Program-made: the position numbers and the translations under genes
Notes under the pieces: generated by a model
The model's input: the letters and a program-made list of their open reading frames with translations, nothing else
What the model was told of the DNA's origin: nothing
The model's database searches: none
Shown: in pieces, positions 32,430-45,498 of the stretch
How positions within the stretch are numbered: position 1 is the stretch's first letter
Layout: each line of letters starts with the position of its first letter
Source: Gammaproteobacteria bacterium (ex Lamellibrachia satsuma)
GTDB taxonomy: Bacteria; Pseudomonadota; Gammaproteobacteria; Chromatiales; Chromatiaceae
Direction: 5' to 3'
DNA length: 64,000 nucleotides
Assembly: GCA_019623805.1 (NCBI GenBank)
Contig: CP053680.1
Location: forward strand, 2,458,001 to 2,522,000

Positions 32430-32736
32430 ATCGACGACGAGATCGAGTCCGAAAATCGAGGGGAAAGGCGATAGATAATAACGCCATTTTCAGGGTGAAT
32501 CAAAGGTTCATGCTCATTTTTTTGATTATTGCTACAGTGGTAAAAATGCAACAAAGTTGGCTGTGATCGATTTTCTGCGTCATAATTTACCAGGCCTGTT
32601 AACACTATACGGATGCCCGGTAGTTTATTAGCGCGATAGCTCTGCTCTTTGTCCGCAGCGGGTTGACATGTAGGGGTTAAATTCATACTCTGAACCGCGT
32701 CATGTAATACACACCTGGGAAGCATTCTTCCCTCAA

Positions 32737-33068
32737 TTGAAATGGATGAAGCGCTTCGTCAGCGGGCGCGCAAGGAGCATAAATTACTCATCGAGTCGCG
32801 CTGCAATCCCCCCCAAACCAGTCAAGTGGAACAAGATCGAACATCGCTTGTTCTGCCACATCACGCGCAGCTGGCAAGGCGTTTCGCTGAATAATCACGA
32901 GACCGTAGTTAATTTTATTGGTCCTATGAAAACCAAAAATGGTTAGGAAATTCACGCCGGATTTGGCAAAAGCCGGTTACGAAAAATCGAAGAGGACCAG
33001 TGATGGCTGATATACAGAAGCACGAATTAAATGCAGTACATTTCATCACGAATGGGATTGCCAAATAG
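32737..33068 (+). pseudogene. decayed ISAzo13-type transposase remnant
   Basis: The frame at 32737 contains KWNKIEHRLFCHITRSWQG and later NNHETVVNFIG, the C-terminal hallmark of ISAzo13-family DDE transposases. The expected preceding Pro-Pro-x-Thr motif (NPPQTS) appears in a different frame just upstream, and after a TAG at about 32946 a third frame (MADIQKHEL to 33068) resembles the final residues. Two or more frameshifts and a stop show the gene is dead. The rest of the element is missing. It marks the dusB-side edge of the island. Confidence 0.7.
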
Positions 33069-33119
33069 TGTCTATAGAAAAACTAACAATTCAGTAACTT
33101 AACTTTTTGCAGGTTCTTC

Positions 33120-34559
33120 ATGGTTAATGTCCGCATCTCCCGGCATCCGGTAAAAGCGTTGTTGTGTCTCTTGGTACTGATGGCCGGGACTCTCCCGAGC
33201 ATGTCATCCTGGGGAGCCTTGACCGTCGAAGCACCGAAACCGGGGCAGTTTCGCGCGCCGTTCGACAAGCGTCGCGGAATTCACAGCTATGCCGATCTTG
33301 TGGACGCAACGGTTGGCGCCATTGTCCGTATCAACAATTGGCAGAAGGTTGAACACAAAGATAAAAAGACAAAGAAGAAAGAGTATCGTCTAGAAGCGAC
33401 GAGTCTTGGCTCCGGGGCATTCTTCGATGCAAAGCGCCGTCTGGCGGTCACCAACCACCACGTGGTCGAAGGCGCCGAAAAGCTGACCGTGCTTCTATCC
33501 GACGGACGCGAGGTTCCGGCACACCTGGTCGGTGCCGACAAGATGACGGATATCGCCGTCGTGCAACTCAATGAGTCCCCCGCGCAGGCGCTGAATTTCG
33601 TCGATTCCTCGACCGTCAGGACGGGCGATGTGGTGTTCGCGGCCGGCTCACCCGTCGGACTCGATTTCTCGTACTCCATGGGAATCGTCAGTGCGACCCA
33701 GAGAAGCCTGGGAAAAGGCGGAGTCGAGGCGTTCATTCAAACGGACGCGGCAATCAACGGGGGAAACAGCGGGGGACCGCTGCTGGATACGGCTGGTCGC
33801 ATTGTTGGGATCAACACACTGGAGCTCGCGAAAAAAGGGAAACGCACTATCGATGGCATCGGTTTTGCGGTGCCCTCCGATATCGTGGTCCGGGTGATTG
33901 AGCGTTTGATCGAGAACGGGCGTCTGCGCCGGGCCTACCATGGGTTGGAGAAAGGCGCCTCCCTCGCCAAGTTGATGGCTGATAAATCTGTTCGCAAAAT
34001 ACTGCTTAAAGAGTTGAAGGTGTCCGTCGACAGTGGTGTTTTAGTCATGGAGATCAAGCCCGGCTCGCCGTTCTTCAATGCGGGAATCCGAAAAGGCGAT
34101 ATCATCACGGGAGCCGGGGAAGAGCGCATCGATAAGCTCCATGATATTGTGAATTTCGTGTCTATGGTCGAGGTCGACAACCGTTATCCGCTGGTCTTCA
34201 TGCGCGATGGCGCTCCCCACCGTGCATACCTCTCGTTTTCAGCCAGGCACGAGTTGAAACCGAAAGGGAAGACGAAACAGTACCTCCAGTTCGCCCACCA
34301 CTTTCATGCAGTCTTCACCGAGCAACCGAAACGCTTCGACGGAGGTGATACATGCAGGGGCGTCTCGGTCGCCTACGTCGACGAAAAGAAGGCGGTCGGG
34401 AAGAACCGGCTTCAGGTTGGGGATATCGTCACGGCCGTGGACAGTAAAGGAATCAACGATCTTCTGACCCTGGACAAGAGCTTGAACGGCCGGCGGCTCG
34501 AGGTTCCGGTCGTCCTTTGCCGCAAAGATCGAAAGATGACTCTTTCCCTCGTCCCGTGA
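33120..34559 (+). CDS. exported HtrA-like serine protease with PDZ regions
   Basis: 479 residues with a signal sequence (ALLCLLVLMAGTLPSMSSWG). The trypsin-like domain runs about 50-275. The catalytic triad is visible: His in VTNHHVVEGAEKL, Asp in GADKMTDIAVVQL, and Ser in INGGNSGGPLLDTAG. A PDZ domain covers about 295-375 (SPFFNAGIRKGDIITGAGEE) and a second, shorter one about 405-479 (NRLQVGDIVTAVDSKG). Unlike DegP/DegQ it has a lysine-rich loop (KDKKTKKKEY) before the His. It leads the Tag-like set on the island and starts about 50 bases after the dead transposase. A role in cutting or checking the exported neighbours is plausible but inferred. Confidence 0.85.
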   Translation: MVNVRISRHPVKALLCLLVLMAGTLPSMSSWGALTVEAPKPGQFRAPFDKRRGIHSYADLVDATVGAIVRINNWQKVEHKDKKTKKKEYRLEATSLGSGAFFDAKRRLAVTNHHVVEGAEKLTVLLSDGREVPAHLVGADKMTDIAVVQLNESPAQALNFVDSSTVRTGDVVFAAGSPVGLDFSYSMGIVSATQRSLGKGGVEAFIQTDAAINGGNSGGPLLDTAGRIVGINTLELAKKGKRTIDGIGFAVPSDIVVRVIERLIENGRLRRAYHGLEKGASLAKLMADKSVRKILLKELKVSVDSGVLVMEIKPGSPFFNAGIRKGDIITGAGEERIDKLHDIVNFVSMVEVDNRYPLVFMRDGAPHRAYLSFSARHELKPKGKTKQYLQFAHHFHAVFTEQPKRFDGGDTCRGVSVAYVDEKKAVGKNRLQVGDIVTAVDSKGINDLLTLDKSLNGRRLEVPVVLCRKDRKMTLSLVP

Positions 34560-34654
34560 AACCCGCTGGTCGGGGCAGGATGATTCAGGTGTTTGGAATC
34601 AGGGGGTTAGAGGTTTATGCGCGTTACAAAATTATTTCAAATCGGGGAGATACA

Positions 34655-37066
34655 ATGCGAAGGATATCGAAAGCAGAGGGGAAGGGCGTGGCCTGGCTGA
34701 GGTCCGTTGCCGTCGCGGCCGTCCTGGTGTTTTTCGTTGGCGGGACGAGTCTTGCTGCGGAAAAGGAGGACCACGCGGGCGCGCAGACTGCACCGTCGAC
34801 CCCGCAATCAGGGGAAACTTTGAAGGAGCCGGCGCTACCGAGCGAAACAGCCCCGGAGAACGGCGCCTCGGCACCTGAGCAGCTCCCGCCGAAGGAGCCT
34901 GTCCCCCCGCTTGGCGGTACCGCCAACTCCGGACAAGACGGGGCGGAAGCGGCGCCTGGAGATACGGATGTGCAACGGAAACCCGAAACCGGTGGTGACG
35001 CGGCTGAGAGCCAGAAGCGCATGGCCGGCGACGATCCGACTTTCGTGCCGTCCGGCATTACCTGCGCGGGTGGACGCACGCCCTGCATCGTCGATCAGAC
35101 GGCTCAGCCGCTGAGAATCATCACGCGAACCGCAACGCCTCTTTATGCTGATGCGGACGAGAAGGGGACGATCCGCTCCGACGCCGTCGCGGCCTTCCAG
35201 CCGGCGTTTGTCTTTGAGCGCAAGGATCTCGATTTCTCCGATCCGGTCGCGCCGAAGGGATGGTATCGGGTCGGCTACACTGCGACAACCCCGATCGGCT
35301 GGATGAAAGCGGCCGACGTTATGGAATGGCGTCAGGCGCTGCTTGTTGCCTTCCTGCATCCGGGCACGGGGACCGATCGCCGCATGCCGGTCCTGCAATT
35401 CGAAACCAGGGAGGCTCTCAAGGAAGGAGTGGTGCGGGCGAATGACCGCGTGGGCCGGGCCAAAGCGCTCTACGACACTCTGTCGGCGTCGAAGAAACCA
35501 GCCGGCGTGATCGCCACGGAGCCCCCTGAGTTCATCGATATCGATGATAGGTTCTACCTCATGCCCATCCTGGAATGGGAGGCGGAACCCCGCTATGAGG
35601 ATTCCCACTATCTTCGTATCATGAACGCTGTGCCGGGCAGCCGCGCAGAGCCGGGTGAAGGGACCCTTGAAGATTCCGAGGTCTTGAAAGAACCTCTTCG
35701 CCGGGATGGTCGCGACATCAAGGACCTGCGGGTCGATATCAAGTTTGTGATCGATATGACCGGCAGTATGCAACCTTATATCGATCAGGTTGCCGAAGCA
35801 GCGGGCAAATTGGCGAGTAGGATCGAGAATGGCAGTCCCGGCGACTTCGCCAAGTTCGGTCTGATCGGGTTCCGGGACAGTGTGGAGATAAGCCCTGGTT
35901 TGAAGTGGACGACCAAGAACTTTACCCCGGAACTGGTCGATGCGGGCGGGCTGCGCGACTTGCTGAAAAACGGAGGCCAACCGCTGGCGGCCGATGTGAC
36001 GAGCGACGAATGGCGCGAGGATGTTTTTGCGGGCGTACGGCTGGCCTTGCAAAGCCCTTGGTCGACCGAGTCCAACGAGGACGGCAATGTGCGCCGGGTG
36101 GTCGTGTTGATCGGTGACGCGAGCGGCCATGAAGCCGATTCTGCGAAGAGTTCCACAGGCATGACGCCCGAACACCTTCGGCAAATTGCCAACCAGTCGA
36201 ACACGCTGATATCGACCTACTACCTCAAGGACGGTGTAGCCGCTGCCGATTGGCCGGTGGGAATCGAGCAGTTCTCCATCCTGGGCCGCAACCAGTCAAG
36301 CGAGGCTGACGGGAAGCTAGGCTCCCACGAGATCGAGGTCACCCGGATAGGGGAGCTTTCCTTTCAGTTCGACAGCATTGCAAAAGTCGTCGAGGAGCTG
36401 GGTAAACTCGTTGCCACCGGCAACAACAGAGGCGCCAAGGGGTTCGCCAAGGATGGCCAGACGCTGCCCCGCAGCGAGGTTCCCAAAGGCGTCGACAAGG
36501 ACTCAGCCGAGGCCGGCGTTGCGGTGATTGAGAATGTCTTCCGGGCCGCTGTGATCGAATATCTTGGGTCCGATGGTGCTCCCGGCAAGGATTTCATGGC
36601 TTGGGTTCATGACTTCGATCTTCAGGATTCGTTCACGCAACGCCTTGAAATCCGCGTCCTCGTATCCCGGCAGATCATGGACAACATCATCCGGCAGACA
36701 CAAACCATCTACGATGCGATGGTCACCGCGAAACAAGCCCGGATGGATTTCTACACCGCGCTGCAATCTGTGTCGGCACAAACCGCGCTCGGGCAGGATG
36801 TCACTGCGGATGCCACGCTCGGCGAACAGGGTTTTCTGCCTAAATGGGTGTCGGCTCTTCCCTATCGAAGCGAGGTTCTCGGCTTGAAGCCCAGGGCATT
36901 GGCTGAAATGTCGGAGACGGACAAACACCTGTTCGAAGCGCGTTTAAAATCCAAGTTGAAGAGTTACCAGGACATTTTCAATAACTCCGGACGTTGGATC
37001 AAACTGGACGAAGGCGGAGATGACCTTCAGAAGGTGACTGCCCTGCCCTTGACATTACTGCCGTGA
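34655..37066 (+). CDS. exported SH3-like / vWA-domain protein resembling the PpkA ectodomain
   Basis: 803 residues from ATG 34655 (GGGGAGA upstream; signal peptide ending at SLAAEKED). After it lie a Pro/Glu-rich low-complexity linker (about 40-140), an SH3-like region at about 150-228 (RTATPLYADADEKG to GWMKAADVMEWRQ), a middle domain with RFYLMPILEWE, and a von Willebrand A domain starting near 360 with the metal-site motif VDIKFVIDMTGSMQPYI. The order SH3-like plus linker plus vWA strongly recalls the periplasmic half of PpkA, the type VI secretion threonine kinase. No kinase domain or membrane anchor is present. It is followed 10 bases later by the ATPase gene. Assignment to PpkA relatives is from memory of the family. 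Confidence 0.75.
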   Translation: MRRISKAEGKGVAWLRSVAVAAVLVFFVGGTSLAAEKEDHAGAQTAPSTPQSGETLKEPALPSETAPENGASAPEQLPPKEPVPPLGGTANSGQDGAEAAPGDTDVQRKPETGGDAAESQKRMAGDDPTFVPSGITCAGGRTPCIVDQTAQPLRIITRTATPLYADADEKGTIRSDAVAAFQPAFVFERKDLDFSDPVAPKGWYRVGYTATTPIGWMKAADVMEWRQALLVAFLHPGTGTDRRMPVLQFETREALKEGVVRANDRVGRAKALYDTLSASKKPAGVIATEPPEFIDIDDRFYLMPILEWEAEPRYEDSHYLRIMNAVPGSRAEPGEGTLEDSEVLKEPLRRDGRDIKDLRVDIKFVIDMTGSMQPYIDQVAEAAGKLASRIENGSPGDFAKFGLIGFRDSVEISPGLKWTTKNFTPELVDAGGLRDLLKNGGQPLAADVTSDEWREDVFAGVRLALQSPWSTESNEDGNVRRVVVLIGDASGHEADSAKSSTGMTPEHLRQIANQSNTLISTYYLKDGVAAADWPVGIEQFSILGRNQSSEADGKLGSHEIEVTRIGELSFQFDSIAKVVEELGKLVATGNNRGAKGFAKDGQTLPRSEVPKGVDKDSAEAGVAVIENVFRAAVIEYLGSDGAPGKDFMAWVHDFDLQDSFTQRLEIRVLVSRQIMDNIIRQTQTIYDAMVTAKQARMDFYTALQSVSAQTALGQDVTADATLGEQGFLPKWVSALPYRSEVLGLKPRALAEMSETDKHLFEARLKSKLKSYQDIFNNSGRWIKLDEGGDDLQKVTALPLTLLP

Positions 37067-37076
37067 TTACGGGGCC

Positions 37077-37838
37077 ATGACTTCGGACATCGTCAGGCTT
37101 CGCGATGTAAAACGGTACCGGGGAGGCGGCGAGCGGACCTTCGAGCTGGTCGTCCCAGAACTGCGTATCGAACGTGGCCGCTTCGTGGCCCTGGTCGGAG
37201 CGAGCGGTTCGGGCAAGAGTACGCTCCTGGATCTGTTGGGCCTCGTCCTAAGGCCCAGCGCGGGCGGGACGTTCCTGTTCTCGCCGGATGGAGAGGGTGT
37301 CGACACTGTCGATATCGTCGAAACCTGGCGGCAGGGTAACGACGATCCGCTGGCCGCCTTGCGTCGACGCTCTATCGGCTACGTTTTGCAAACCGGGGGC
37401 CTGATCCCGTTCCTGGATGTGTCCCACAATATCGGGCTGCCGCTGCGCCTGCTTGGGCGGAAACCCGAGGGCCGGACGATCTCCGCAGCCCTTGAGCGCT
37501 TAGGCCTTGGGGGGTACGAAGAGAAGATGCCGTCAACGCTTTCCGGCGGCGAGCGTCAACGGGTGGCGATCCTGCGTGCCTTGTCTCATGGTCCTGCGAT
37601 GGTGTTGGCCGATGAGCCGACGGCCGCCCTTGACCGGGAACGGGCCCGGCATGTGGTCGAGCATTTTCGTGAACTGGCGCAAGCTCAAGGGACCGCGATC
37701 GTGATGGTGACCCATGACGAGCAACTGGTGTCGGGCCTCGCTGATATGGTGGTGCGTTTCAATCGTGTCTCGACACCCGATCACGCCGGCACTATTCGTT
37801 ATATCAGCGATGTGACGGCAGGAGACTTCGTGCAGTGA
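37077..37838 (+). CDS. LolD/TagT-like ABC transporter ATPase
   Basis: 253 residues. Walker A is GASGSGKST at about 41-49, the signature LSGGERQRV at about 155, Walker B MVLADEPTAALD at about 175 and the switch His in VTHDE at about 211. It belongs to the LolD/MacB/FtsE class of ATPases that drive mechanical change across the membrane and do not move a bulk solute. An insert rich in charged and Gly residues (FSPDGEGVDTVDIVETWRQ) after Walker A is unusual. The stop overlaps the permease start by four bases. By neighbours it corresponds to TagT of the TagQRST envelope sensor. Confidence 0.88.
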   Translation: MTSDIVRLRDVKRYRGGGERTFELVVPELRIERGRFVALVGASGSGKSTLLDLLGLVLRPSAGGTFLFSPDGEGVDTVDIVETWRQGNDDPLAALRRRSIGYVLQTGGLIPFLDVSHNIGLPLRLLGRKPEGRTISAALERLGLGGYEEKMPSTLSGGERQRVAILRALSHGPAMVLADEPTAALDRERARHVVEHFRELAQAQGTAIVMVTHDEQLVSGLADMVVRFNRVSTPDHAGTIRYISDVTAGDFVQ

Positions 37839-39688
37839 CCGGGTCTACTTCACCTGTTTCCAGGATGGAGATCCTGAGATTGGCGATTGCCGATCTCCGG
37901 GCCGAGACATTATTGACTTTCTGTCTGATCGGGTCGCTCGCGGCAATCGGCGCACCGCTACTCATCCTGGACGGGTTGCGGACAGGAATCGTGGAATCGT
38001 TGCGCCAGGACTTGGTCGGTGATCCCGTCTTCCGCGAGGTGCGCCCGGCCGAGACACGACCCTACGACGAAACCTTCTTCGCTGCCCTAAGGGCGCGATC
38101 CGACGTTGATTTCGTCATGGAGGGAATCACCCGTGGAGCGAGTTCGATCATTGTTTCTGCCAGCGACGCAGCAAGTTCGGAAGCGCGCCCAAGGGTGGAG
38201 AGCGAGACCATACTGGATATGCTGCCGACCGCCCCCGGCGATCCGCTGCTGACTTCTTACGACGCGCAGGTCCCGGCTGCGGGGGGAGCGGTTTTGTCGG
38301 CCGAGGCAGCGGTGCAACTGAAGGTGAAGCTGGATGACCGATTGACGCTGGAAATCGGGCGTCAGCGCGCCAGTGCCCGCGAGGTCGAGACCGTCGAGGC
38401 GTGGGTGAAAGGCGTTTTGCCGGCAAGGGCCGATCCGCTGCCCAGGATCTACCTCCCCTTCGCTTTAGTGCGTGACATCGAAACCTACCGCGAGGGATAT
38501 GCGGTGTCGGAGCGGGACTGGCCGGGGTCGCCACCCGACGTCGCTCCCGGCTTCGACGGGCTCTATATCCTGTCCGAGCGGCCGCTGAAAGCCACCGTGC
38601 AAAGCCGCCTGCAAACCTTGACAGGCTTTTTTATCGGCGAACCCGGGGAACCGGATGGTTTCGAGAAACGTCTCGGCATGACTTTTCCCGAAGAGCAATC
38701 GGTGTTCCGGTTGTCGGCGATCGAACGCCTGGCGGGTCCGGAGGTGTTGCGCCGGGTGATCAGCGTTCTTCGCGGGCAGAATTACGACGTGTTTCCCTAT
38801 GTCGACCATCTGGTGGTTACGATCGAAGGTTCCGGTGGGGAGATGAGCCCGGCGCTGCCTGTCCGAACCTCCGACAATCTACGTCACCTGTTTGAGTCGC
38901 CTGTCGCTGAGATAAACCGGATCCAGGTTCCGGCCGGCCTCGGATACCGGGTTGGAGAGACGATCACGCTGATAGCGGCGACCGACGGGGATCCGGTCAG
39001 GGTGCCGGCAGTGATTGCGGGTCTGTCGGAAAATCCGTCGGTGCAATTCGTCGAGCTTTCGGCGGCACTCGGCGGCATGCTGCGGCGCGGCCAGAAGCAA
39101 CGGGTGCGGTATGATTCTCTGACAGATCGGCTGCGGGTCGAACGAACCAGTTTCCGGGGCTTTCGTCTCTATACCGAGACCATCGATCAAGTGCCGGCAC
39201 TCGTGCGTCATATGCAAGGGCTTGGGATTGATATGGTGGCCCAGGTCGGTACGATCGAGCGGATCCTGCTCCTCGATCAGGGGCTGATGCGCCTTTTTCT
39301 GATCATCGCGATCATTGGTGGCGCAGGTGCTTCGGTGGTGCTCTTGACCAGTCTCTATGCAGCGGTCGAGCGCAAGCAGGCCAGCCTCGGTCATCTCCGC
39401 ATTCTCGGTATCAGCAGAGGCGATATTTTCGTTTTTCCTGTTTACCAGGCCTTGATCATGGCCCTGATTGCCGTCGCCGCCGCGGCCCTTTCGGCTCATA
39501 TCATCGCGGCACTGATCAATACGTTCCAGGCTGAACAACTCGGATTAAAGGGGGATATCTGCCGGATCACGTTGGACGCACACGTCTACGCCTGCCTGAT
39601 TGCGCTGGGGCTCTCCTTCACCTCGTCATTCTTTGCGGCCTTGCGCGCGACCCGAATCGATCCCGCCGATGCGATGCGTCAGGAGTGA
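37835..39688 (+). CDS. FtsX/LolE-type ABC permease (TagS-like)
   Basis: 617 residues. One N-terminal membrane helix (LTFCLIGSLAAIGAPLLIL, about 28-48) is followed by a periplasmic region of some 430 residues, then three more helices near 490-610 (LFLIIAIIGGAGASVVLLTS and later LIMALIAVAAAALSAHIIAA). The coupling helix near ERKQASLGHLRILGISRGDI is typical of the MacB/LolE family. This four-helix plan with a large outer domain belongs to mechanotransmission ABC systems. GTG 37835 overlaps the ATPase stop; ATG 37865 is an alternative. Beside the SUMF1-fold gene it matches TagS. Confidence 0.85.
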   Translation: MTGSTSPVSRMEILRLAIADLRAETLLTFCLIGSLAAIGAPLLILDGLRTGIVESLRQDLVGDPVFREVRPAETRPYDETFFAALRARSDVDFVMEGITRGASSIIVSASDAASSEARPRVESETILDMLPTAPGDPLLTSYDAQVPAAGGAVLSAEAAVQLKVKLDDRLTLEIGRQRASAREVETVEAWVKGVLPARADPLPRIYLPFALVRDIETYREGYAVSERDWPGSPPDVAPGFDGLYILSERPLKATVQSRLQTLTGFFIGEPGEPDGFEKRLGMTFPEEQSVFRLSAIERLAGPEVLRRVISVLRGQNYDVFPYVDHLVVTIEGSGGEMSPALPVRTSDNLRHLFESPVAEINRIQVPAGLGYRVGETITLIAATDGDPVRVPAVIAGLSENPSVQFVELSAALGGMLRRGQKQRVRYDSLTDRLRVERTSFRGFRLYTETIDQVPALVRHMQGLGIDMVAQVGTIERILLLDQGLMRLFLIIAIIGGAGASVVLLTSLYAAVERKQASLGHLRILGISRGDIFVFPVYQALIMALIAVAAAALSAHIIAALINTFQAEQLGLKGDICRITLDAHVYACLIALGLSFTSSFFAALRATRIDPADAMRQE

Positions 39689-39693
39689 CCCGA

Positions 39694-41415
39694 ATGAAGA
39701 CCTCTGCCAAAGTGACGTCCTTGCAACCGCCGACCGTGTGGCGCGTACTGTTATTGTGTCTTGGTCTCTGCTTCGGTTGGGCGCTGGATATGTCCGGGGC
39801 TATCGCGCAGTATCGCTGCCACGGCCAGTTGGCCGAAGGGGCCACGCCGAATGCCCTCGACAATCCCTGTCCCGATCCTGCGGGGGATCTGGTCATGCCG
39901 ATGCCGGGTGGACTGTCGATGGTATTTCGAACGGTGGCGGTGCCTGGCAAGAATTATTGGGGGGCTGCCGATCGCAACATCGTCCTGGGCCATCCCGAGG
40001 CACCGATTTTCGAAGCTCAGCAAGGGGTCACTGTCGCCGGGTCGTTCAAGGCAGAAGACGGAACCTGGCGCATCGTCCTCGGTAAATATGAGGTGACGAC
40101 CGCTCAGTTTGCCGCAGTCCTCGGTCAAGGGGATATCGCGGTCGGGATCGCCTATCTCGTGCGGTCCAGCGGCGGACTCGAAGAATATACCGCCCTTCAG
40201 AAGCAGGGGATTGATCCGTTCGATCGCGAACGGTTACTCGCAAAGCCGGTCTCCGGCATTCCGTTGCGGGACTACCAGGCGTTTATCGAAGCCTATACCG
40301 CCTGGTGTTATGACGATGCCGTCTGCCGGGCTGCGATGCCGAAATTTGGCTCGATGCCGGGTTTCTTTCGATTGCCGACCGAGATCGAATGGGAATACGC
40401 GGCCCGGAACAACGATGATCAGTATTCCGACAGGTTGCCGTTTCCCCTGGAAAAAACCACGGAATTCGGGCGTATTTCGTCAGGGCGGCGGATCCATTCG
40501 GAAACCACGCTCATCGGCCGACAATGGGCGATCAACGGTTTCTACGACCTGTTCGGCAATGTCGAGGAGTTGTCCGATGACCGTTTCGTGACGGAACTGG
40601 CCGGAGGAAAGTCCGGCTCCCGGGTCGGACGTGGCGGTAACTTCACCGACACTGCGAAAGACTTGCGGTTGTCCATGCGCCGGGAAATTCCGGTTTGGCG
40701 GGCCGATGGGGATCGATTGGTCGAAACGCGCAGCCCGCGCGTCGGGATCCGCCTTGCCATCGGCAGTCCTAACATCCCGGACCGAGTGGTTTTCGATCAG
40801 ATCGAAAGGGAGTACGAGACATGGCGTGGTTCGCTGGCGAAAATGCAGAGTGCATCGGGCCGCAGCACCCAGGCGAGCCTGCTTGGTGCTGATGAACCAC
40901 TGCGCCGCATCGAGGCGCTTCTGCCAGATCTCGTCCGCCGCAATCCCAGTCTGGCGGAGGATGTTCGGAGGATCAACGCGCAGGTGGTTGAAGCGCGTGT
41001 CCAGCTGGTCCGCACGACCGAGGACCTCGTTAAGCAACTGACGGAGAATACGGTCAAGGCTGCCGCCGAAGTTGGCCGGACCTTGTCAGAGTTGGGGAGG
41101 ACTAAGCGCTCCCTCAAGCTTATCAGGAAATCGAAAGAGTCACTGGCCAGTGCCGGGCGGCTTGAACGTCGCCTCTCCTATTTACAGGAACAGTACAGCG
41201 CGTTGTTCAAGGCCTATTCCGACCAGGTCCAGACGCTGGCCAGCTATCGCGACTTTGCAGGGGAACGCCTTGCCGTCATGGCGAAAGCACGGAACACGCG
41301 CTACGTTGTGCTTGGTCTCGAGCTATCGACGCGCCACGTCGGGGATGTCCTCAATGGGACTGTCGATCTGGATCGCTGGCAGGATGACATACGCACCGGC
41401 TTCGGTGCAAAATAA
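39694..41415 (+). CDS. SUMF1-fold periplasmic protein with C-terminal coiled coil (TagR-like)
   Basis: 573 residues from ATG 39694, which has AGGAG eight bases upstream; a GTG at 39685 overlaps the permease stop. A signal sequence (WRVLLLCLGLCFGWALDMSG) precedes a formylglycine-generating-enzyme-like fold at about 60-350: GKYEVTTAQFAAVLG, FRLPTEIEWEYAARN, LFGNVEELSDDRF, VGRGGNF and PRVGIRLA. The catalytic cysteines that follow RGGSF in true enzymes are absent (FTDTAKDLRL), so it is probably a binding protein. The last 200 residues are predicted coiled coil (Arg, Glu, Leu rich). TagR of Pseudomonas has the same SUMF1 fold; the coiled tail here is extra. Confidence 0.8.
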   Translation: MKTSAKVTSLQPPTVWRVLLLCLGLCFGWALDMSGAIAQYRCHGQLAEGATPNALDNPCPDPAGDLVMPMPGGLSMVFRTVAVPGKNYWGAADRNIVLGHPEAPIFEAQQGVTVAGSFKAEDGTWRIVLGKYEVTTAQFAAVLGQGDIAVGIAYLVRSSGGLEEYTALQKQGIDPFDRERLLAKPVSGIPLRDYQAFIEAYTAWCYDDAVCRAAMPKFGSMPGFFRLPTEIEWEYAARNNDDQYSDRLPFPLEKTTEFGRISSGRRIHSETTLIGRQWAINGFYDLFGNVEELSDDRFVTELAGGKSGSRVGRGGNFTDTAKDLRLSMRREIPVWRADGDRLVETRSPRVGIRLAIGSPNIPDRVVFDQIEREYETWRGSLAKMQSASGRSTQASLLGADEPLRRIEALLPDLVRRNPSLAEDVRRINAQVVEARVQLVRTTEDLVKQLTENTVKAAAEVGRTLSELGRTKRSLKLIRKSKESLASAGRLERRLSYLQEQYSALFKAYSDQVQTLASYRDFAGERLAVMAKARNTRYVVLGLELSTRHVGDVLNGTVDLDRWQDDIRTGFGAK

Positions 41416-41450
41416 TTGCTATCCAACAAAAATGAAGAAGGAGTTGAGAG

Positions 41451-42242
41451 ATGACGATACAAAAGACGCGGCTCACGGGCGGTATATCGAAAACCATGGC
41501 AGTCTTGATTGCGACGTCCTCCCTTTTGGGGCCGACGGCGGTGACCGCAGCTTGGTCCTTTGACGACCTCACAAAAGGTGCTGGCGATATGTTCGATTCA
41601 GCGAAGGGCGCTTTCGATGGTGGGAATGACGGAAACGCGGAGAGTGGCGAGCCGACCCTGTCGCGGACTACGCTTCAGGGTTGCGCCGCTGGAGGGGTCA
41701 CAGCCGCACTCTTGGATAAATTTGACTTTCTCGGCGACGGCAATCCGTTGCTGAAAGTTGGTATAGGAACCTTGGTCGGTTGTGCTGCCGGTGAGTTGCT
41801 CAATCAGCGTCGCGATGAGTATGCGAATAAGGCCGATTTCTACGATGCACAGATTGAACAGAGCGAGAAAAACAACGAATCCCTTGCGAAGTTCAACGAC
41901 GAGGTCGAGAAGGAAATCGTGCGCAACAAGGGGATCATCAAAGGTTTGAAGAGCCAGAAGACGCGTTCCAGCGCTGCGAAGAAGAAGGCGAAGGAGAGCC
42001 ATGCGCGAACCAAGGCGAATGCCGAAATCGCCGAGAAGGAGCTCGCCTTAGCCCGCAAGGAGGCTGAGACCCAGAATGAAGTGTTGAAGGAGATGCGTGC
42101 CGTTCCTGCTCCCAAGGCCGATGCCGGGAGAATCCGGGATCTTCAGGCAGAAGTCGATACACTCAACAGTCATGTCTCCGATCTCGAGGCTATGGTTGCC
42201 GAAATCGCCGACCAACGGGATGTTATCGGGACCTATGGTTGA
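41451..42242 (+). CDS. exported glycine-zipper / coiled-coil protein (hypothetical)
   Basis: 263 residues. A signal peptide (MAVLIATSSLLGPTAVTAAW) is followed by a Gly-rich patch (FDSAKGAFDGGNDGNAESG) and a glycine-zipper-like pair of helices, CAAGGVTAALLDKF and KVGIGTLVGCAAGELLNQ, at about 75-115. Such zippers insert into or lie on membranes. From about 120 to 260 the chain is a long charged coiled coil (DAQIEQSEKNNESLAKF onward). No named family is recognised. AAGGAG precedes the ATG. It belongs to the same operon as the Tag-like genes and could connect the outer-membrane lipoprotein with the SUMF1 protein through coiled coils. Confidence 0.65.
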   Translation: MTIQKTRLTGGISKTMAVLIATSSLLGPTAVTAAWSFDDLTKGAGDMFDSAKGAFDGGNDGNAESGEPTLSRTTLQGCAAGGVTAALLDKFDFLGDGNPLLKVGIGTLVGCAAGELLNQRRDEYANKADFYDAQIEQSEKNNESLAKFNDEVEKEIVRNKGIIKGLKSQKTRSSAAKKKAKESHARTKANAEIAEKELALARKEAETQNEVLKEMRAVPAPKADAGRIRDLQAEVDTLNSHVSDLEAMVAEIADQRDVIGTYG

Positions 42243-42271
42243 ATTACCTGTTTTAGGACGAGGAGGTCCAT

Positions 42272-42817
42272 ATGTGTGATTGCATAAGGATGGCGATACC
42301 CAATGGTAAGAGCGCCAGGTTGTTATTGCCGGTCGGATTCGTTGTCGTGTTCCTTGCCGGTTGCGCAACAACCGACCCCCGGGAGGACAATATAGTATCG
42401 GCGATAGCCGGCGCGGGTGGCGGACACGAAAAGTATATCGACAATCAGAAAACCCGTCTCGGTCAATCCAAGCTGCAGGTCGAGCAGCAGGAGAGTCAGA
42501 AACAGACGAATGTGGCGCTCCTGACGGCGACGGAGGCCGAGATCGCCGAGTTGCGCAAGGACATCGGCAACCTGGAGAAAGACATAGCGTCCTATCAGGC
42601 GCGGGTGGAATTGGCGCGCAGAAAAGGTACGGCTGATCGAAAGAAACTGGCCGATCTCGAGCAGAAGTTCCGTCAACTGCAGGACGACACGAAACGCCTC
42701 GATCGGGACGCCGAGATGATGCACAAGAGCGAAGCGATCCTGCGGGAGCGACTCGGTTCGTTGGAGGTGAAAAGGAAAGAACTGCTGACAATTCTGGATA
42801 TGCTATCGGGTGGGTAG
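42272..42817 (+). CDS. coiled-coil lipoprotein (TagQ-position, hypothetical)
   Basis: 181 residues. A long N-terminal region with hydrophobic core LLLPVGFVVVFLAGC ends in a lipobox, so Cys near residue 31 should be lipid-modified. After CATTDPREDN there is a short Gly-rich spot (AGAGGGHEKYID) and then about 120 residues of coiled coil (QESQKQTNVALL, ATEAEIAELRKDIGNLEKD and similar heptads). The +2 residue is Ala, not Asp, which permits transport to the outer membrane. TagQ in Pseudomonas is an outer-membrane lipoprotein at the end of the same gene set; I see no proof of homology beyond position and type. Ribosome site GAGGAGG upstream. Confidence 0.6.
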   Translation: MCDCIRMAIPNGKSARLLLPVGFVVVFLAGCATTDPREDNIVSAIAGAGGGHEKYIDNQKTRLGQSKLQVEQQESQKQTNVALLTATEAEIAELRKDIGNLEKDIASYQARVELARRKGTADRKKLADLEQKFRQLQDDTKRLDRDAEMMHKSEAILRERLGSLEVKRKELLTILDMLSGG

Positions 42818-42870
42818 CCCGGTTCGTAGCAGCAGCGCCCCACCGCACCTGGGATTATGGCTGAGGATCG

Positions 42871-43974: not shown

Positions 43975-45498
43975 TTCTACTTTGTCAGATTAGATCTATA
44001 AGTAACTCACTGAATAATATAAAATATATGCTGTGAATTTCTTGGCAATCATCGTAAGGAAGAGCATCAAATGACAAGCACCAAGGTCATTTGAATTACC
44101 TGATACGCGCATAAGTAGAATCGATCGCATAGCGGAGCGATTCCAACGTTTCCAGTACCGCTTTGAATCCCATTTTCGAAGCAAGACGAGGTCGGTGTTT
44201 CAACCGGTCACACACTATCTCAAAGGCCTGATGCAAGCGCAGAGAAAGAACATGGAACGCATGGAAGAGGTGGTTGCAGGCGCAGATGATCAGCGTCTCC
44301 AGCATATGCTCACCGAGTCCCCGTGGGATCATCGTGCGGTGTTAGACCAAGTGGCGCTGGAAGCCGATCAATGGCTGGGTGGAACCGCGGATACCTGTCT
44401 GTTGCTCGATGAGAGTGGCCTTGCCAAGAAGGGTAAACATTCAGTGGGGGTTAAACGCCAATGGAATGGCCGCCAGGGCAAGGTGGATAACTGCCAGGTT
44501 GGTGTATTCGCAGCACTGGGTAAAGGGCACTTGTCCACGCTGATAGATGAACGTCTCTATCTACCCAAAGAGTGGGTATCGAACCCGGCTCGCTGTCGCA
44601 AGGCGGGTATCCCGGAAGTTGAACGGAAACATCAAAGCAAGTCAGAGTTGGCGCTGGAGATGGTGCGTCATCAGAGGACGCTTGGCCTGCGTTTTGCCTG
44701 GGTGGGTGCAGATGGGGGATACGGGAAGGATCCGGCTTTTCTGAGGGGTTTGGAGGCGATGGGTGAAACCTTTGTGGTGGACATCCACAAAGACCAACAG
44801 GTCTACCTGGAAGATCCACAGCCGTTCATACCGGAGAGCACGACAACGCGCGGTCGTCGTCGAAGTCGTCTGCAAGCCCAGGCAGCCCGTCTGCGCGTTG
44901 ACCAGTGGCTCAATGAGCAACGGGACAGCGAGTGGCAGCAAGTGGTATTACGGGATAGCAGCAAGGGCAAACTGCGCGTCGAGATCCTGCATCATCGGGT
45001 TTGGCTTTGGGATGGAAAAGAAGCCCAGGCACATCAATGGCACCTGATTGTACGACGAGAGGTCAATTCACCGGAGACGATTAAATACACCTTGTCGAAT
45101 GCACCGGAAGAAACGCCATCCCATTGTCTTGCAAAGATGCAGGCGCAGCGGTTCTGGGTTGAGCGTTCGTTCCAGGATGGTAAGAGTGAATCAGGTCTTG
45201 CTGATTATCAGGCCCGTAAATGGAAATCCTGGCATCACCATATGGCCTTGGTCATGATGGCGATGTTATTCATGCTCGAAGAGCGAATTGTGCAAAAAGA
45301 TGATCACCCCTTACTCAGTTGTTCAGACATCGAATCGCTATTGCGTGCCTTCCTGCCACGGCGAGATATTGAACGCGATGAAATACTACGGCAAATGACG
45401 AAACGGCATCGTAAACGACAAGCGGCTATCGACTCCCAATATCGAAAACAGACGCTGGAACAGTCGGTTGCCGGGTGATGGAATCTGACAAAGTAGAA
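43975..45498 (+). mobile_element. IS701-type insertion sequence, complete
   Basis: 1524 bases bounded by perfect 17-base inverted repeats (TTCTACTTTGTCAGATT on the left, its complement at 45482-45498). Direct repeats CTAA flank it at 43971-43974 and 45499-45502, agreeing with the YTAR target of the IS701 family. Perfect repeats suggest recent insertion. It carries one transposase gene and lies in prmA in the opposite orientation. Confidence 0.93.
44195..45478 (+). CDS. IS701-family transposase
   Basis: 427 residues from GTG 44195. The DDE transposase core is seen as LLDESGLAKKGKHSVGVKRQW (first Asp), FAWVGADGGYGKDPAFL (second Asp) and QRFWVERSFQDGKSESGLADY (Glu), with the family phrase KVDNCQVGVFAAL. 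The same frame remains open back to about 44075 and encodes plausible IS701 N-terminal sequence (RIAERFQRFQYRFESHF), but has no ATG, GTG or TTG there. So either a rare start (ATA or ATC) is used or a single-base change removed the original start. The C-terminal end encodes a basic tail (RHRKRQAAID). Confidence 0.88.
   Translation: MFQPVTHYLKGLMQAQRKNMERMEEVVAGADDQRLQHMLTESPWDHRAVLDQVALEADQWLGGTADTCLLLDESGLAKKGKHSVGVKRQWNGRQGKVDNCQVGVFAALGKGHLSTLIDERLYLPKEWVSNPARCRKAGIPEVERKHQSKSELALEMVRHQRTLGLRFAWVGADGGYGKDPAFLRGLEAMGETFVVDIHKDQQVYLEDPQPFIPESTTTRGRRRSRLQAQAARLRVDQWLNEQRDSEWQQVVLRDSSKGKLRVEILHHRVWLWDGKEAQAHQWHLIVRREVNSPETIKYTLSNAPEETPSHCLAKMQAQRFWVERSFQDGKSESGLADYQARKWKSWHHHMALVMMAMLFMLEERIVQKDDHPLLSCSDIESLLRAFLPRRDIERDEILRQMTKRHRKRQAAIDSQYRKQTLEQSVAG

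Follow-up and report, generated by a model that had tools for sequence, protein, structure and literature searches.

A kinase-free homologue of the PpkA ectodomain and TagQRST set on an acquired island with an HtrA-type protease gene

Positions 33120 to 42817 of the 64,000-nucleotide stretch analyzed here (the window) are filled by seven intact open reading frames, all on the plus strand (Table 1). The earlier note had described seven closely spaced plus-strand genes at this place; every one of these frames is present, and their folds were assigned with Pfam/NCBIfam and with AlphaFold models searched by Foldseek. Genes 2 to 5 are separated by a 10-bp gap or overlap by 4 bp (ATPase/permease and permease/SUMF1), the gaps between genes 5 and 7 are ~30 bp, and the HtrA gene lies ~95 bp upstream of the vWA gene in the same direction. 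The start of the vWA protein is ATG 34655, not TTG 34517. Neither RNA elements nor tRNA genes were found in the window. A role in anti-phage defense was considered and rejected, as PADLOC gave no specific match, just generic ATPase, protease, and coiled-coil ones.

Table 1. Features of the locus, in positions of the window.
Feature	Coordinates	Strand	Remarks
Acquired island	32554..42868		Absent from other species of the genus, which have ~160 bp instead
ISAzo13-type transposase remnant, left edge of the island	32840..32965 (approximate)	+	PF07592, E 3.6e-15
HtrA/Deg-type serine protease, 479 aa	33120..34559	+	Pfam Trypsin_2 and PDZ; part of the inserted unit
Exported vWA protein, 803 aa	34655..37066	+	Kinase-free homologue of the PpkA ectodomain
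ABC ATPase, 253 aa, TagT/LolD/DevA-like	37077..37838	+	Pfam ABC_tran
Type VII (MacB/LolE/FtsX) permease, 617 aa, TagS homologue	37835..39688	+	Pfam FtsX
Exported SUMF1/FGE-fold protein, 576 aa, TagR homologue, C-terminal coiled coil	39685..41415	+	Pfam FGE-sulfatase
Glycine-zipper/coiled-coil protein, 263 aa	41451..42242	+	TagQ homologue by family profile
Coiled-coil lipoprotein, 181 aa	42272..42817	+	Lipobox LAGC-ATTDPR

The HtrA protein has a signal peptide, a trypsin domain, and PDZ domains, with the triad motifs TNHHV at 111, TDIAV at 143, and GNSGGP at 215; carrying both a trypsin-fold His-Asp-Ser triad and a PDZ domain, it belongs to the HtrA/Deg proteases. It is the third copy in the genome, where two other HtrA-type genes (35 to 39% identity) lie elsewhere. 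The Pfam match of the vWA protein is weak, below the cut-off; the vWA fold is clear in the AlphaFold model and in the PDB matches of that model (Foldseek). A MIDAS-type motif is conserved (D368-x-T370-x-S372 and D489, numbered as in the alignments, one residue ahead of the ATG start), and Pfam/NCBIfam searches found no kinase domain in the 803 residues. As read from its sequence, the ATPase retains the Walker A, signature (LSGGE), and Walker B motifs intact.

The permease has four transmembrane segments, one N-terminal helix and three C-terminal helices around a periplasmic domain. Its predicted structure matches LolE (Z 23.5), MacB, and FtsX (Z 18.9), and on this model it is a member of the type VII ABC (MacB/LolCDE/FtsEX) fold. 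An extra periplasmic segment of ~200 residues (about residues 240 to 439) is specific to the branch of the family that holds the window (the long branch, described below), and because of this insertion the permease measures ~610 aa in that branch versus ~407 aa elsewhere, TagS included. An origin of the insert by internal duplication of the periplasmic domain was rejected by a profile-profile test (probability 1%). In the SUMF1 domain, the FGE-site cysteine is absent from all 23 aligned homologues, TagR included, at the alignment positions that we take, from established knowledge of FGE, to be those of the copper-binding catalytic pair; this absence indicates that the SUMF1 protein is probably a binding domain rather than an enzyme. 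The glycine-zipper protein has a signal peptide and, unlike its relatives and TagQ, lacks a lipobox cysteine. In the 181-aa lipoprotein, the alanine at position +2 suggests an outer membrane location. Relatives of this lipoprotein occupy the same position in long-branch loci and a similar lipoprotein occurs in Srf loci, with no counterpart detected in T6SS loci.

Comparison with related genomes defined the island. In four congener genomes, dusB directly adjoins the DUF3426 gene, and three aligned empty sites have ~140 to 160 bp where the window has 32554 to ~42868, an island of ~10.3 kb. Because the empty sites span the whole unit, the HtrA gene lies inside what was inserted. An endosymbiont of Escarpia spicata, which belongs to the same genus as the genome of the window, carries the closest copy (97% identity), and the bacterium of the window is accordingly most likely a symbiont of a vestimentiferan tubeworm. 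Against this sister copy, all seven genes have dN/dS values of 0.03 to 0.21 and no indels, with dS similar to that of the flanking genes; the low dN/dS and the lack of indels show that the seven-gene set is maintained by purifying selection. Within the survey, HtrA stands beside the module in two near-identical genomes only. Outside the island, a DDE_5-type transposase (44195-45478) is inserted beside prmA, its frame overlapping the end of prmA, and the prmA frame is 312 aa in the window and 300 in the sister genome.

To relate these genes to PpkA and TagQRST, authentic T6SS loci were needed. An initial search of 17 genomes, most of them Pseudomonas, brought up one match in each (a Srf-type locus) and no PpkA, for which reason FGE matches in Pseudomonas genomes were used as the route; these led to four T6SS loci (L202, L203, L210, and L213). 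In L202, the order is TssM-like, TagF, a 239-aa gene (called PppA by position and size), PpkA, TagT, TagS, TagR, and TagQ; PpkA has its Pkinase domain at 13-255, and TagQ has Gly-zipper domains. Whole-family profiles matched PpkA, TagT, TagS, TagR, and TagQ of this locus one to one and in the same order, positions 36-690 of the 690 in the vWA HMM covering PpkA residues 364-987. Since these profiles contained Srf-linked members, the test was repeated with HMMs built from the long branch only, which again matched the Pseudomonas T6SS locus (PpkA, 1.2e-114; TagT, 3e-82; TagS, 1.1e-90; TagR, 9e-72; TagQ, 2.8e-14). Single sequences from the window alone also matched (vWA versus PpkA, 2e-45; ATPase, 2e-54; permease, 1e-33; SUMF1, 8e-21), except for the glycine-zipper protein and the lipoprotein, which had no match to the T6SS locus, so that the link to TagQ is one of family profile. 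We conclude that the core proteins are homologues of the PpkA ectodomain, TagT, TagS, TagR, and TagQ and that their genes keep that order. The kinship with the outer part of PpkA and with TagQRST that the earlier note had drawn, and for which it had proposed this profile search, is thus borne out (E values of 3e-14 to 1e-114 in the same order), and its vWA and SUMF1 proteins fall by profile in the families of the PpkA ectodomain and TagR rather than in unrelated ones. The locus lacks what marks the T6SS threonine phosphorylation pathway, namely, a kinase fused to the vWA part, PppA, and T6SS genes, and the kinase query found no match there. The claim that the set stands without any type VI gene accordingly holds for the locus (no T6SS gene, kinase, or phosphatase) and fails for the genome, which has a T6SS elsewhere.

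How widely the set occurs was examined in 288 related genomes, 96 of which contain the vWA protein. The protein was also found in 80 named loci and matches 126 plasmid records (114 of them Klebsiella). Four layouts can be told apart among the gene neighborhoods: T6SS-linked (PpkA-TagTSRQ), Srf-linked, minimal three-gene, and that of the window. In the vWA tree, a long branch of 39 rows that includes the window is set apart from a short branch of 58 rows (PpkA ectodomains, Srf-linked forms, and minimal forms). The main grouping is recovered in the permease tree as well, where TagS is sister to the minimal form (98/94) and, as an exception, two Verrucomicrobial long-branch permeases (L105 and L106) fall closer to the short branch. 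Neither tree is rooted, and the age order of the forms is not readable from either. Gene order is conserved across phyla. Queries for T6SS components and PppA found no match in the surveyed long-branch and Srf neighborhoods, save one DotU-query match in L050/L095, which are the same contig, the DotU query also carrying an OmpA domain; the few kinase-query matches near these loci all lie outside the operon. The gene set therefore usually occurs without type VI genes, not always beside complete type VI loci, and is no orphan, as the earlier note had called it: it forms one of two deep branches in a large family whose members mostly have no kinase. The same genome also holds a minimal paralogous module (L003 7043-11793; genome 2.933-2.938 Mb) composed of a 235-aa Sel1/TPR-like gene, vWA, ATPase, and short permease genes.

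A periplasmic peptidase adjoins the module in 21 of 39 long-branch loci and in 0 of 54 surveyed short-branch loci (Fisher p ~1e-9 with 46 short-branch loci, a descriptive value that ignores shared ancestry). It is S41 in 16 of the 39 rows, M23-type in three, and HtrA in the window pair; S41 lies just downstream of the last lipoprotein on the same strand, and M23 or HtrA lies upstream. The other 18 long-branch loci have no peptidase in the DNA examined, and several of these loci are incomplete. An HtrA-like gene is also present in L113, a locus that yielded no vWA frame and that the tree does not include. The presence of S41 in outlying Desulfarculaceae (L104) and Acetobacteraceae (L090) rows suggests that S41 may be ancestral in the long branch and HtrA a replacement. 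The correlation is partly phylogenetic, as related rows share ancestry. In Sedimenticola-type loci (L043-L046; e.g., L045 395-9717), genes for two large proteins precede the module, one of 1,000 aa that matches nothing in Pfam and one of 2,105 aa that has Ig-like and carboxypeptidase-regulatory domains; these proteins are possible clients of the S41 peptidase. We found no description of the peptidase-linked branch in the literature searched.

TagQ, TagR, TagS, and TagT act upstream of PpkA and sense membrane damage (PMC10482370, PMC6657622). For the set in the window, we are slightly more inclined to accept than to doubt that the island encodes a kinase-free, T6SS-independent PpkA-ectodomain/TagQRST complex that couples envelope status to a periplasmic peptidase. 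Two inner membrane permeases and two ATPases would form a mechanotransmission engine, with the periplasmic vWA and nonenzymatic SUMF1 proteins docking on the enlarged periplasmic domain of the permease. Coiled coils would extend the vWA and SUMF1 proteins to the outer membrane lipoprotein and the glycine-zipper protein, and a change in the state of the outer membrane, such as damage or contact, would alter this bridge. Useful work or a signal would end in the periplasm, the most economical place for an output because the kinase is absent and the ATPase is the sole cytoplasmic enzyme. The ATPase cycle would then recruit or allosterically switch a periplasmic peptidase, perhaps S41 ancestrally and HtrA here. 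Whereas the family placement is a matter of observation, the coupling to a protease is what we infer; the recurrence of peptidases beside the long branch lends more support to the earlier suggestion that a protease may be the output. Against such coupling, the HtrA gene, with ~95 bp between it and the vWA gene, could have its own promoter; and since the TagQ homologue lacks a lipobox, the link to the outer membrane may be different. More broadly, and with rather more doubt than belief, the kinase-free branch can be read as an ATP-driven envelope machine whose output peptidase is swapped among S41, M23, and HtrA, with the T6SS sensor a later kinase-vWA fusion that re-used an older, general transducer of envelope status.

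It is unlikely, in our judgment, that the module is as described and the protease is not its output, HtrA being a cotransferred quality-control neighbor and the module a sensor for another output, for example, the remote T6SS of the genome or the regulation of envelope stress. HtrA adjoins the module in this lineage only, and the same genome has a T6SS at 3.73-3.80 Mb, 1.27 Mb from the island, with an FGE-carrying Ser/Thr kinase: the cluster (L071 8441-14710) encodes a 1439-aa protein with Pkinase and FGE domains beside an FGE-SPOR protein. However, no vWA homologue or motif was found in this cluster near the kinase, including by a simple pattern search, the branch of the module is deeply separate from PpkA, and other periplasmic peptidases replace HtrA in other long-branch loci. 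A relationship between the module and this T6SS kinase was itself considered and rejected, as the kinase has Pkinase and FGE domains and no vWA match was found there; because the kinase has an FGE domain of its own, a functional link between the two may nevertheless exist. Less probable still is a LolCDE- or MacB-like machine that extracts or positions the lipoproteins of the cluster or large exported proteins, the SUMF1 and vWA proteins serving as chaperones and the peptidase as a processing enzyme. The closest permease structures are of LolE bound to lipoprotein, the cluster encodes lipoproteins, and Sedimenticola loci add the two large proteins; yet type VII permeases have this fold regardless of function, TagQRST homologues act in signaling (PMC6657622, PMC10482370), and the large proteins are missing from most loci, the window included. 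The commonness of each fold by itself and the IS remnant at the island edge might point to a nonfunctional remnant or to common envelope genes that came together by chance; given the gene order conserved across phyla, the purifying selection on all seven genes, and the intact frames and motifs, this is extremely improbable.

To our knowledge, neither the way in which TagQRST senses envelope damage nor the purpose of its ABC transporter, which has no known cargo, is settled for the T6SS. That a kinase-free branch is widespread shows that the kinase is an output the family can do without and suggests a general-purpose sensor able to drive different outputs; it also leads us to expect that the core acts in the periplasm through type VII ABC mechanics. 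Kinase-free loci would offer simple systems with a measurable enzyme, the protease, as the read-out.

Compared with PpkA/TagQRST of the Pseudomonas H1-type T6SS, the locus in the window has in common the vWA ectodomain, ATPase, permease, SUMF1 protein, glycine-zipper protein, and their order. It differs in lacking a kinase domain, PppA, and any T6SS gene, in a TagQ homologue without a lipobox, in the added ~200-aa permease segment, extra lipoprotein, and HtrA, and in its placement in a separate tree branch.

T6SS-free TagQRST/ppkA-like genes beside srfABC have been known since 2013, when Campbell et al. (PMC3608642) described tagQRST and "ppkA" beside srfABC in oral/host-associated Deltaproteobacteria, for the most part lacking a T6SS, and the same srf neighborhood was noted in Xenorhabdus (PMC6950479). 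This Srf-linked module shares with the window the order vWA-ATPase-permease-SUMF1-glycine zipper-lipoprotein and the lack of a T6SS and a kinase. In contrast to the window, SrfA, SrfB, SrfC, and a ~340-aa protein precede the vWA gene, a second vWA protein often follows the lipoprotein, the permease is short, and no peptidase was found. SrfA-SrfB-SrfC are absent from the locus in the window; an SrfB profile had no match in its genome either, a weaker result for the genome as a whole because control genomes were silent too, though the Klebsiella SrfB protein matched. Hosts of the Srf-linked module include Klebsiella plasmids, Pseudomonas, Gilliamella, Pasteurellaceae, and others, and one complete copy is on Klebsiella plasmid NZ_CP138739.1 (L039 4077-21447). 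Because the vWA protein in the surveyed Srf-linked loci is about 650 to 730 aa long and the kinase query found no match in them, the "ppkA" label there may be a misnomer. Annotations of "PpkA" or "TagQRST" beside srfABC should not be taken as evidence of a T6SS.

The long-branch loci with S41 (Sedimenticola, Ectothiorhodospira, Allochromatium, Desulfopila, and others) share the branch, the long permease, and the six-gene core with the window. They differ in having S41 downstream instead of HtrA upstream, a PDZ-like segment being detected in one (L097), and some add the 1,000- and 2,105-aa proteins, which the window is without.

Beyond the family, the coupling proposed here would parallel FtsEX driving EnvC and amidases and YbbAP working with TesA. 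In the published type VII ABC systems FtsEX-EnvC (PMC7668044) and YbbAP-TesA (PMC12646458), ATP cycles drive conformational work in the periplasm, and periplasmic hydrolases act with the transporter. Both do without vWA, SUMF1, and lipoprotein partners and hydrolyze peptidoglycan or lipid, not protein; what they have in common with the proposed complex is a type VII ABC permease and ATPase coupled to a periplasmic hydrolase.
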